Made by a program: the position numbers and the translations under genes. From NCBI GenBank assembly GCA_026390015.1, contig JAPLGS010000075.1:1-55543 (forward strand): a stretch of 55,543 nucleotides of DNA, given 5' to 3'. The notes below the pieces were generated by a model, which was not told the DNA's origin, ran no database searches, and was given only the letters and a program-made list of their open reading frames with translations. The DNA comes from Chloroflexota bacterium. Lineage in GTDB: Bacteria; Chloroflexota; Anaerolineae; Anaerolineales; Villigracilaceae. Positions 13,272 to 16,294 of the stretch are shown here, one piece after another (the stretch's first letter is position 1; each line of letters begins with the position of its first letter).

Positions 13272-14492
13272 TCATACACCCGCTTTGCGCTCCAGGCGAC
13301 CGAGTCTATGATCAATTTCAGCAATCCAATGTTTACGGATGTATGCGGGCAGGTCAGCATGTTCCACTTCCTTGCGCGCAGATTTCGCCCATTTGAGCGA
13401 CATCTTCACGTCGCGCATTTTATGTTCATAGTATTTTGCCAGCTCGATGTGAGCATAGATGTGTCCCTTGCCGGCCGCCTCCTCCCACAAGCGCAGCGCC
13501 TGATTCACATCCCCGCGTTTTTTTTGCAGGATGGATAAACGCTTCACAGCTACGCCGAAATCTGATTCTGTTACCCCAAGCTCGAGTCCACGCTCGAACA
13601 GGCGGGCGGCTTCATCCCAGTGGCCGAGGTCTTCATATAATTTTCCAAGCGCGATGAAATCCAGCCCATGCTCCACGCGGCCGCTATATGGATCCGCGAG
13701 CAATTCACTGACGTGACTGAGCAAAGCTGCCATCGCCACTACATCCATCGCGTTATGATAAAACACGCCGCCCAGCGGACGCGCGTCGCCGGTTCGTAAA
13801 TAATCAAAATACAGCCAGGGAATTTCATAGCCCGGCACTTCATCGGATGTGCGCGTAAAACCAAGCACATGTTCTTCCAGATATTTCAACGCGCGCGATG
13901 GAAGCCTGTCACGCCACAATCGCCGCGCAAGCGGAAGCAGATCAATGTGTGAGTAATTTTTGAATGGAACTGGAATTCTATGTAACGAGTATCGAGTAAC
14001 AAGCAAAGGTGCGTCGAAGGATTTCCCATTGAATGTGACCAGCCCTTCACAAGGCGCGAGAAATTCGATCAACGCTTCGAGCATGGCGGGTTCTTCGGAA
14101 GGGTCGCGTAAAAAGAATTGCCGCAGGTTGAATTTGCCGTCCATAAAACGCGCCGCGCCGACCAGAAAAGCATACGTGCCTGTCCCGCCCGCCAGGCCGG
14201 ATGTTTCGGTATCAAGGAATGCAAATTTGTGGATCGGCAGTTCCGCGATACGCGGGTCATTTGCCCATTGCGATATTAATGAAAGCGGGAACGTGGAAAG
14301 ATGAGATACATTTCCGTGGAGATAATCTTCAGCAAAAATTTGCTCAGTGACGAATGCCTCGCCGCGTGCTGTGGCGCGAAAACTGCCAGCCACGACAGAG
14401 TCTATTGTGTGGCTGGCAGGCTTCGGCGACGGGAGATAAGATGTGCCCGTCTTCACGCCGAGCGATTTTAGTTTATCCGATAAGGTAGGCAT
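13272..14492 (-). CDS. YprB-like RNase H-fold exonuclease with C-terminal TPR
   Basis: A 406-aa protein. The exonuclease core (about 85-260) carries the DEDD pattern: D94 and E96 in FLDTETSGL, D160 in FNGKSFDAPLL, and H246/D250 in YHNAMDVVAM. The C-terminal part (about 270-395) is made of TPR-like helices (LGKLYEDLGHWDEAARLFERG). YprB-type proteins are predicted 3'-5' exonucleases; their nucleic acid target is unsettled. Confidence 0.85.
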   Translation of the reverse strand: MPTLSDKLKSLGVKTGTSYLPSPKPASHTIDSVVAGSFRATARGEAFVTEQIFAEDYLHGNVSHLSTFPLSLISQWANDPRIAELPIHKFAFLDTETSGLAGGTGTYAFLVGAARFMDGKFNLRQFFLRDPSEEPAMLEALIEFLAPCEGLVTFNGKSFDAPLLVTRYSLHRIPVPFKNYSHIDLLPLARRLWRDRLPSRALKYLEEHVLGFTRTSDEVPGYEIPWLYFDYLRTGDARPLGGVFYHNAMDVVAMAALLSHVSELLADPYSGRVEHGLDFIALGKLYEDLGHWDEAARLFERGLELGVTESDFGVAVKRLSILQKKRGDVNQALRLWEEAAGKGHIYAHIELAKYYEHKMRDVKMSLKWAKSARKEVEHADLPAYIRKHWIAEIDHRLGRLERKAGV

Positions 14493-14534: not shown

Positions 14535-15218
14535 TTAATCGATATGCCTTCTGATTGAAACTAACTTCATCAGGCTGGTTTCTTCTTTGACGACATTCGC
14601 GATGGGGGTTGCTACGATAAATAATCTGCCCCAACTGGCGTTGCCGTTATTTTCAATACATGTTTGGAGGGTGAGGTGATATTCACCGCGATAGACCTTG
14701 TTGAAGAGTTCTTCGGCGGTAAATTTGGTTTGTGTTTCAAGATCACTGAATTGGCTGTATGGGTTTAGCGGATCCAAAGCCTGAAAACGTTGGATGTTTA
14801 TTGCCATAAAACTCTGCATGTGCCCATCACCGTAGACAAGAACGATCACGTCGCCTGATTTTATGTTGGAGAATAAACTGCCAGCGAGTACGTTGTGCGC
14901 CAGCAAGCCTACATTCCCAACTTCGGTGGCGATGCTGAATTGTGTGGCAACAGATTCAGCTGTGGATACATATCCGGGGTTTCCCATGGGCTGCTGGACA
15001 ATCGCCAGCGCCATCACGTTAGATACATACACACCGCGCAGTGTACCGGAGTTACCGTCTTTTACGGTTTCAATAAATGTATTTAAATCAGGAAGCGCAT
15101 TGGGGGTTTCTTTTGCATAGGCCTGCACAGGAAATATAAATGTGCAGAATAGGACACACATGAGTGTTACTGCGAGAATTCTATTATTAAATTTGGTGAG
15201 CAGGTTTTTGGATGCCAT
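14535..15218 (-). CDS. Sortase family transpeptidase under c-di-GMP riboswitch control
   Basis: A 227-aa exported sortase. A signal peptide or anchor (about 14-36, ending VQAYA) precedes the beta-barrel catalytic domain. The triad is visible: H108 in LLAHNV, C187 in LTLQTCIE, R198 in WGRLF. Sortases attach surface proteins or build pili outside the membrane. No LPxTG-type substrate is encoded nearby. GAAGGA precedes the ATG, and the leader of some 320 nt carries two c-di-GMP-I riboswitches with a terminator between them, so surface display is likely tied to c-di-GMP level. Confidence 0.88.
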   Translation of the reverse strand: MASKNLLTKFNNRILAVTLMCVLFCTFIFPVQAYAKETPNALPDLNTFIETVKDGNSGTLRGVYVSNVMALAIVQQPMGNPGYVSTAESVATQFSIATEVGNVGLLAHNVLAGSLFSNIKSGDVIVLVYGDGHMQSFMAINIQRFQALDPLNPYSQFSDLETQTKFTAEELFNKVYRGEYHLTLQTCIENNGNASWGRLFIVATPIANVVKEETSLMKLVSIRRHID

Positions 15219-15284
15219 GAATAAATTCCTTCATATGAGCATCCAGATCTTTTGCGAATTGCTAGAAATCTCGATAGCTCGTTT

Positions 15285-15372
15285 TCGGAAGCCTGGCAAT
15301 CATGGCTGTGCGGGCACAACTTTAGATCCATGGCTTTGCGTCCCTGCCTTTCAACAGGTTTGCGATTTGTCG
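15285..15372 (-). promoter_or_regulatory. Cyclic di-GMP-I riboswitch (GEMM), gene-proximal copy
   Basis: On the minus strand the aptamer core reads GCAAACC, a stem capped by GAAA, then GGGACGCAAAGCC, then ATGGATCTAAAG and a second arm closing with CATGATTGCCAGG. This matches the GEMM-I consensus, including the tetraloop in P2 and its receptor in P3. It ends about 50 nt before the ribosome binding site of the sortase gene. No terminator follows, so it may act on translation. Confidence 0.88.
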
Positions 15373-15393
15373 ATACGATTACTTTTAAGGTTC

Positions 15394-15428
15394 AAAAAAA
15401 AGCGGGTCTGGCTTTTGCCAGACCCGCT
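15394..15428 (-). terminator. Intrinsic terminator between the two tandem riboswitches
   Basis: A perfect 12-bp stem, AGCGGGTCTGGC with GCCAGACCCGCT, around a four-base loop, followed on the minus strand by eight or so T residues (A run at 15394-15401). It is immediately downstream of the distal riboswitch and is probably its expression platform. Confidence 0.92.
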
Positions 15429-15449
15429 GATGGAAACACAATTATGTGA

Positions 15450-15540
15450 TCTTCGGCGGCCTGGCGATCATGGTTGTGTTTCCACAACTTTAGATCCATG
15501 ACTTTGCGTCCCTGCTTTTCAGCAGGTTTGCGATTTATCG
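15450..15540 (-). promoter_or_regulatory. Cyclic di-GMP-I riboswitch (GEMM), distal copy
   Basis: On the minus strand: GCAAACC, stem TGCT-GAAA-AGCA, GGGACGCAAAG, then CATGGATCTAAAG, P3 hairpin GTTGTG-GAAA-CACAAC and CATGATCGCCAGG. A strong GEMM-I match. An 11-base segment of P3 (TGGAAACACAA on the minus strand, 15474-15484) is exactly complementary to 15431-15441, which lies just before the terminator. Pairing of the two would unfold P3, a plausible switching mechanism. Confidence 0.9.
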
Positions 15541-15794
15541 GATTTTTCCTGCCCATAGTTTAGCATGGGAACTGGCTTTTGTGCTTTTCACTTTCGAAAG
15601 TTTGCTTAATAGTATTGCAAGGTGACTGGAAATAATTATGGTCAGTATGTTGGGGATTTATAAGGGATTTTATTCCAACAAGCGCACGCAATTGTAAATA
15701 ATTTCCCCAGTCAATCTAATTCTTATAGATGCCAATATTGCACAAGAGCTTGCTGCCCCTCAAATATAAGTGGATGTATCCAAATGTGATCTGA

Positions 15795-16109
15795 TCATGA
15801 GTAGAACAGATTAATGCTGGCAGTTCCTCTTGAATTGCCGGATAAAATTCCAGAGGCGTCTCCCAGCACCTCACAAATTTTTCTGCGCGTTTTTTGATTG
15901 AGCGAATTATTTAGTACGATACTGATCTTTGGCTTTCTTTCAGAGAAATACTCAACGCTGATATTCAAGTGGAAATTTTGATCAGTATTATCAAGCTCGT
16001 TTTCAAGCAAATTAATTACTTCCTCGGTGAAATTAAATAGACTCTTCGCCGATTCATCAGACTCAGGAATTAATATTTCAATGCCTTCGAACGCTATTTT
16101 TTTGCTCAT
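15795..16109 (-). CDS. 104-aa hypothetical protein under c-di-GMP riboswitch control
   Basis: A small soluble protein, no signal peptide or membrane helix. It is acidic in the middle (NLLENELDNTDQNF) with a strand-rich second half (FHLNISVEYFSE, PKISIVLNN) and a Gly/Ser-rich tail. AAAGGA precedes the ATG. No family is recognised. Its leader carries a c-di-GMP-I riboswitch (16188-16276) and an intrinsic terminator, so its expression should follow c-di-GMP like the sortase gene downstream. Confidence 0.7.
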   Translation of the reverse strand: MSKKIAFEGIEILIPESDESAKSLFNFTEEVINLLENELDNTDQNFHLNISVEYFSERKPKISIVLNNSLNQKTRRKICEVLGDASGILSGNSRGTASINLFYS

Positions 16110-16130
16110 CAGGCTTTCCTTTTTATCGTT

Positions 16131-16163
16131 AAATAAAAGGGGTTATGACAAAAGCCATAACCC
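16131..16163 (-). terminator. Terminator between riboswitch 3 and the 104-aa gene
   Basis: GGGTTATG (16140-16147) pairs with CATAACCC (16156-16163); on the minus strand a T-rich run follows. It sits in the 5' leader, 22 nt before the start codon, as expected for a riboswitch expression platform. Confidence 0.85.
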
Positions 16164-16187
16164 TGAAAATAAAAACGATAATTTATT

Positions 16188-16276
16188 CTCTGGCGGTCTG
16201 GCAATCTTAATTATGTTTCCACAACTTTAGATCCATGACTTTGCGTGCTCTGCTTTTCAACAGGCTTGCGTTTTAC
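16188..16276 (-). promoter_or_regulatory. Cyclic di-GMP-I riboswitch, third copy (divergent)
   Basis: On the minus strand: GCAAGCC, stem capped by GAAA, then GAGCACGCAAAG, CATGGATCTAAAG, TTGTGGAAACATAA and GATTGCCAGACCGCC. Compared with the two copies at 15285-15540 it has one extra base and one change in the 3' strand of P2 (GAGCACGC against GGGACGC). Core positions are mostly kept, so it may be functional with altered affinity, or decaying. Confidence 0.75.
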
Positions 16277-16294
16277 AGTTGTCTGACATTGTAT

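Follow-up and report, generated by a model that had tools for sequence, protein, structure and literature searches.

Aptamers, terminator and sortase gene at the locus

The DNA under study, hereafter the window, is a stretch of 55,543 nucleotides from a Chloroflexota bacterium of the order Anaerolineales (contig JAPLGS010000075.1, assembly GCA_026390015.1), and the element in question is a pair of riboswitch aptamers of the cyclic di-GMP class I (c-di-GMP-I, or GEMM-I) lying on its minus strand in front of a sortase gene. A first-pass annotation of this DNA had described two tandem c-di-GMP-I riboswitches with a perfect 12-bp terminator between them and none after the second, and had suggested a search with the Rfam model RF01051. 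The whole window was searched with cmscan against Rfam 15, and the distal (15452..15542, minus strand) and proximal (15284..15374, minus strand) aptamers were recovered at 72.2 and 72.5 bits respectively, far above the RF01051 gathering score of 35, which bears out the tandem. A weaker third copy at 16189..16280 (minus strand), overlooked in that annotation, also passed the cutoff with 54.2 bits and lies in the leader of a different, small open reading frame (ORF). Sequence identity with the proximal aptamer is 87% and 62% for the other two, and the three are repeats of one another. Each contains GACGCAAAG or CACGCAAAG together with the GAAA loop of helix P2; the distal and proximal aptamers share a CCGAA motif, which reads CCAGA in the third. 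The positions that we take to be A47 and C92 of the c-di-GMP-I aptamer, by our own mapping, hold these bases in all three copies.

The terminator between the two sortase-proximal copies (15401..15428, minus strand; 5' arm 15417-15428) consists of 12 perfect pairs, 9 of them GC, closed by a loop of 4 and followed by 7 T. A terminator scan of positions 14800-16200 returned no terminator-like site from the second aptamer to the start codon, and the remaining minus-strand site was a hairpin at 16163-16140, behind the third aptamer; both statements of the annotation about terminators were thus confirmed. Since shuffled versions of the region yield 1.4 sites on average, the scan is weak by itself, but the 15401-15428 terminator is not marginal, given its 12-pair GC-rich stem.

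The downstream gene (14535..15218, minus strand; 227 amino acids) was assigned to sortase_YLP by the NCBIfam model NF053836 with 219 bits against a cutoff of 125. Sortases are enzymes known for anchoring surface proteins. The same protein matched the Pfam Sortase family at E=0.006, under the gathering score, and 25 of 26 relatives matched that family at E values up to 0.01. Residues H108, C187 and R198, which we take to be the active-site triad, are invariant in all 26 relatives; a sequence search for a relative of this sortase in the PDB found none. Behind the sortase lies a gene with RNase_H_2 and TPR domains (13272-14492, minus strand), and many congeners have, by eye, a comparable ORF in this place.

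A comparative set was built from sortase loci. The initial 26 sortase genes preceded by GEMM aptamers were collected within the genus of the window and by a scan for aptamers with C at position 20 (C20, discussed below); a 27th, L030, was excluded as too divergent. When 301 genomes of the order Anaerolineales were searched with a profile, 106 proved to have the sortase, and aptamers precede many, not all, of the loci fetched, including loci from other genera and families. After removal of repeats the final set comprised 54 leaders, 41 of them with two aptamers, divided equally into 27 of the window's type and 27 of other types. No start was available for leader L203, which was omitted; L211, L213 and L214 did not match the sortase motif and were re-entered as L248-L250, and a proximal aptamer found identically in several leaders was counted once.

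Two putative expression platforms

On the basis of these alignments and of folding calculations, the element is probably a bi-mechanism tandem GEMM-I riboswitch, which would control transcription of the sortase gene at its first step and translation at its second, with both steps OFF. The aptamers, the terminator, the covarying alternative helices and the association of a start-codon stem with the proximal aptamer provide computed support for this arrangement, while ligand binding and the OFF sign are inferred.

In the distal half, the 3' strand of P3 (GCCAGGCC, 15458..15465, minus strand) is complementary to the 5' arm of the terminator and is the proposed antiterminator strand. In relatives the two segments tend to vary jointly, with AAG in the P3 strand accompanied by CTT in the terminator arm, AGG by CCT and AGA by TCT. 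The duplex between them had a mean energy of -16.9 kcal/mol in 20 leaders when matched, compared with -14.9 for permuted and -10.5 for shuffled arms, and none of 20000 permutations was as low. This test omitted four leaders with imperfect terminator stems, which were recovered in a second test on 36 leaders (matched -15.8 vs permuted -14.6; 0/10000 permutations as low); the latter missed L022, L026, L051, L202 and L216, three of which had been present in the former. Of the 41 doublets, 36 had a terminator between their aptamers in the second test, and for the remaining five the earlier 20-leader scan had detected one in three cases. When the distal RNA of the window was cut before the 3' arm of the terminator it folded as the antiterminator, pairing with the 5' arm with P=0.83, and the complete RNA folded as the terminator. 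The first copy is therefore equipped as in bi-mechanism tandems, with its own terminator and a competing antiterminator, the covariation being a property of the family and the window's own duplex not being distinctive. These data support the annotated suggestion that the distal copy controls transcription termination. Without ligand, the P3 strand would pair with the terminator arm and transcription would continue; with ligand, the strand would be held in the aptamer, the terminator would form and transcription would stop, which would make the distal copy an OFF switch.

In the proximal half, a segment about 20 nt 5' of the start codon can pair with the start region by complementarity, in most cases beginning at the G of AUG, and the Shine-Dalgarno sequence sits in the loop of the resulting stem. 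In the window the upstream arm is TGGATGCT (15238..15245, minus strand), the Shine-Dalgarno is AAGGA (15227..15231, minus strand) and the downstream arm, GGCATCCA (15209..15216, minus strand), begins with the last base, G, of the start codon (ATG, 15218-15216). The arms extend up to TCTGGATGCT/GGCATCCAGA in the window's type, and elsewhere they read TTTGAGTGTC/GACACTCAAA, GAGCGCC/GGCGCTC, GGGTGCC/GGCACCC or CTCGGAGCC/GGCTCCGAG, so that the stem covaries across genera. In 26 leaders the start-stem score was 20.8 vs 11.7 for shuffled sequences, a figure that favours the stem, as most starts were located by motifs that include a stem arm (ATGnCATCC and similar). In 43 leaders, 17 of whose starts were chosen by eye with the sequences already known, the mean was 20.1 vs 15.8 with permuted arms, and the maximum of 5000 permutations was 17.7. 

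An alternative is that the start stem is constitutive, a brake, a thermosensor or a stabiliser of the mRNA, and has no relation to the proximal aptamer, which would then act otherwise or not at all. The prediction of the stem in most free RNAs speaks for this decidedly unlikely explanation, but sortase leaders lacking an aptamer score at the level of shuffled sequences. When the Shine-Dalgarno was the sole guide to the start, the mean was 19.0 for 11 leaders that have a proximal aptamer, three of them (L248-L250) being near copies and four (L221, L222, L228 and L238) having their best arms away from the start codon, and 11.9 for 29 leaders that have none (P=0.0002). Many starts of the latter group are uncertain, 15 of the 29 having been picked without a Shine-Dalgarno and some being plainly internal, but the 14 scoring at least 3 for the Shine-Dalgarno, averaged by hand, gave 11.7. 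The start-codon stem is thus associated with the proximal aptamer, as far as these alignments support it, and the annotated proposal that the proximal copy may control translation gains support from a covarying stem tied to that aptamer.

A pair in which both copies act on transcription was also considered. Tandem c-di-GMP-I riboswitches, of which a review counts 347 doublets and 12 triplets, are filed there as pseudo-cooperative (PMC9481103), and the tested triple of B. thuringiensis is transcriptional (PMC4759541). Against such an ordinary pseudo-cooperative pair, which we regard as very improbable here, stand the covariation of the start stem and the terminator scans, which found no such hairpin behind the proximal copy, either in the window or in 50 of the 54 leaders.

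How the proximal aptamer might be coupled to the start stem is best seen outside the window's type. In the 27 leaders of other types, the linker just 5' of the Shine-Dalgarno (e.g. GCCTTTATCGAA) was scored for antisense pairing with the proximal P1/J1-2 strand (TTCGATAAAGGC), giving 19.6 for matched, 15.8 for permuted (0/5000 as high) and 11.6 for shuffled pairs, and the antisense linker was present in 18 of them. Sixteen such leaders, selected by hand, were folded: in 14 of them the linker overlaps the start-stem arm by 3-4 nt, and blocking the aptamer strand brought the start stem from a mean probability of 0.60 to one of 0.90, with a rise above 0.05 in 10. In most other genera, as proposed here, aptamer folding would engage the strand to which the linker is antisense and free the upstream arm, and the start codon would then be locked in the stem whose loop carries the Shine-Dalgarno.

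The antisense linker was rejected as a mechanism for the window's own type, where the pairing scored 10.0 vs 11.5 for shuffled sequences over the 27 leaders. These leaders carry a different pair of motifs. In the window, GAGC adjoining P1 (15277..15280, minus strand) is the proposed anti-sequester strand, with GCUC at the end of the upstream arm (15237-15240) as its partner, and UCGU (15375..15378, minus strand) is the proposed 5' strand of an outer P1 that pairs with ACGA at 15279-15282; the latter pairing is invariant, so covariation lends it no support. A GAG[C/T] by P1 co-occurs with GCTC at the arm end in 29 of 29 leaders, namely the 27 of the window's type and L204 and L215, two leaders of other types that have no antisense linker, and in 1 of the 25 others. 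GAGC:GCUC may do the job of the linker in the window's type, and for the window itself the coupling is suggested by its relatives. With the aptamer imposed, the stem probability rose by more than 0.05 in 8 of 26 leaders (0.62 to 0.87 in the window) and fell in L038.

Several observations weigh against the double OFF arrangement. On the distal side, the window's P3 strand pairs no more stably with its own arm (-16.6) than, on average, with the arms of other leaders (-17.1), and L018 and L093 likewise do worse with their own arms, making 3 of 20 with the window included. On the proximal side, the stem lies directly at the start codon in only 6 of the 11 leaders with blind starts; L209, L217, L219 and L259 fit it poorly and L088 partly; and a terminator-like hairpin stands between the proximal aptamer and the start in 4 of the 54 leaders. 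The antisense linker is absent from 9 of the 27 leaders of other types, 10 of the 16 selected leaders have a start-stem probability of 0.8 or higher even in the free RNA, and in L202 the stem stays near 0 although the aptamer strand is blocked. In the window's type the GAGC:GCUC pairing is invariant, without covariation, and the stem is predicted with or without the aptamer, reaching at least P=0.5 in the free RNA of 25 of 26 leaders.

These last points bear on the sign of the second step. If the bound proximal aptamer opened the start stem, it would activate translation, and the two copies would define a response window rather than a double OFF switch. Such opposite signs are compatible with the unproven GAGC:GCUC coupling and with the lack of a clear switch on folding in the window's type. 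We consider them unlikely, as the antisense linker of other genera ties folding of the aptamer to release of the start-stem arm, and as imposing the aptamer in the window's type raised the stem in eight leaders and lowered it in one. In the favoured double OFF arrangement, both steps would lower sortase synthesis at high ligand.

Position 20 and the ligand

In Vc2, position 20 lies just 5' of P2, and in the c-AMP-GMP (cyclic AMP-GMP) riboswitch J1/2 comprises A9-A14 and P2 runs from C15 (PMC6274999); by our own mapping to Vc2, position 20 corresponds to model position 11. A G at this position goes with c-di-GMP and an A with better c-AMP-GMP binding (PMC9481103). None of the three window aptamers has the G, nor do they have the A by which c-AMP-GMP (GEMM-Ib) riboswitches are recognized: all carry C, at 15532 in the distal, 15364 in the proximal and 16270 in the third copy. 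Since the literature terms position 20 a selectivity factor and not a hard filter (PMC9262584), C20 does not exclude the window copies from the c-di-GMP-I scaffold family. The open literature searched gave no account of the effect of C20, the modelling paper located being concerned, in the excerpt available, with G20A/C92U; the C at position 20 counts among the points against the double OFF arrangement.

The other eight aptamers of the window's genome have G20 (five) or A20 (three). With a strict core pattern, C20 was found in 23 stretches among 84,980 genomes, 14 with Chloroflexi-type titles and 9 from Firmicutes (phylum taken from titles); within Anaerolineales the same pattern gave C20 in 4 of 301 genomes, and 58 of 301 when position 20 was left free. 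By eye, C20 GEMM-I copies of Cohnella and Paenibacillus (L084, L092, L094, L101) precede putative membrane receptors, and C20 is therefore not confined to Chloroflexota.

Among the 41 doublets the distal/proximal bases are GG in 18, AG in 13, CC in 5, GC in 2 and CA, CG and GA in 1 each. On a sortase tree of 54 rows, position 20 changed at least 11 times in the distal and 5 times in the proximal copy; the tree was built quickly, 25 of its 51 inner branches fall below 80, and these counts are minima on an uncertain topology. The proximal base is G in 26 of the 27 leaders of other types, and pairing of G20 in the antisense helix, seen in most such leaders, may hold that base. The length of J1/2, measurable in 93 of 95 aptamers, was 7 nt in 14 of 17 C20 aptamers vs 4 of 76 with G or A, mostly within one clade. 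It is possible, and we put it forward tentatively, that C20 copies with a 7-nt J1/2 form a ligand-shifted GEMM-I subtype, that the selectivity base of each half of the switch changed independently, and that a mixed pair thereby integrates two cyclic dinucleotides, or two thresholds of a single one.

Cyclic-dinucleotide enzymes were surveyed with the ligand in mind. The window's genome has 13 GGDEF matches. Hypr GGDEF enzymes, which make cyclic GMP-AMP (cGAMP), have Ser where others have Asp (PMC6456294). From 171 matches in 10 genomes 133 were examined; 128 showed Asp at the specificity residue, two Asn and three were unreadable, and none of the 133 showed the Ser of the Hypr type. The same 10 genomes, several of them incomplete, yielded no SMODS domain. 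Because no Ser was seen in the examined GGDEF domains and SMODS was not found, c-di-GMP would most simply be the ligand, and position 20 perhaps tunes affinity or selectivity. The two Asn-type proteins (L109 and L318) belong one to the window's genome and one to genome G008, and the sortase leader of G008 has C20 in both copies.

The wiring could nevertheless be as described with C20 copies that sense another ligand or have lost binding, in which case the element would not be a c-di-GMP switch in this genome. The coupling of C20 with the longer J1/2 (14 of 17) fits this somewhat unlikely alternative; the high RF01051 scores of the window copies and the retention of C20 in most of a clade of nine sortases argue against lost binding, and the 13 GGDEF matches point to c-di-GMP.

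Comparison with known tandems and further GEMM-I copies

Tandem c-di-GMP-I riboswitches, including Bc3-5 of B. thuringiensis (PMC4759541), resemble the window's pair in that copies of one class stand in tandem with their own platform each. They differ in that known pairs are classified as repeating one mechanism (PMC9481103), whereas the second copy here is apparently translational, and in that the B. thuringiensis triple is transcriptional ON (PMC4759541), whereas the first copy of the window would be OFF. The review lists bi-mechanism tandems for S-adenosylmethionine (SAM) classes, its authors not having evaluated all tandems (PMC9481103). In the SAM-II/SAM-V tandems the first copy precedes a terminator and the second acts on translation initiation, as proposed here, but the aptamer classes and the ligand differ from those of the window's pair (PMC9481103). 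The Bc1 c-di-GMP-I riboswitch also acts on both transcription and translation, but does so with one aptamer, a double terminator and incoherent regulation (PMC11218506), compared with two aptamers on separate platforms in the window. As regards position 20, c-AMP-GMP (GEMM-Ib) riboswitches have the same scaffold with this base changed, and the Desulfobacca array of c-di-GMP, c-AMP-GMP and adenosylcobalamin (AdoCbl) riboswitches has neighbours that differ at it (PMC9481103); GEMM-Ib has A20 and the window C20, and doublets of the relatives place A20 with G20 before one gene in 13 of 41 cases.

An open-access literature search, with subscription papers mostly outside its scope, brought no description of this tandem arrangement to light, nor was cyclic-dinucleotide control of sortase synthesis in Chloroflexota apparent in the open literature searched. 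If the proposed reading is true, c-di-GMP-I would join the tandem riboswitches in which control of transcription is followed by control of translation, supported by covariation drawn from several families of one order, and sortase synthesis in Chloroflexota would be tied to cyclic-dinucleotide signalling. The Anaerolineales leaders would also offer a natural series on how position 20 sets ligand choice or affinity.

The third aptamer of the window is followed by the terminator-like hairpin (16140..16163, minus strand) and then by an ORF of 104 amino acids (15795..16109, minus strand). Relatives of this protein occur in 9 of 41 genomes, and an aptamer was seen clearly upstream of the gene only in the window's genome and in G008. 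Its identification as SiaC (PF09345) was rejected, as the match reached 13.7 bits against a cutoff of 24.5 (E=0.05) and 1 of 10 relatives scanned gave SiaC, at E=0.06.

Elsewhere in the window's genome and in related sequences, GEMM-I copies occur in back-to-back triple arrays, 80-88 nt apart and usually with A, A and G at position 20, as in L006 (1501-1760; window's genome, C150) and in L049, L060, L064, L069 and L072. By eye, the gene after the array in some congeners is ruvB-like (L049, L065, L069) or response regulator-like (L034, L050, L070). In the window's genome the GEMM-I copies L001 (1501-1589) and L007 (1501-1582) precede, again by eye, large secreted subtilase-like proteins, whose genes are possible members of the same regulon.
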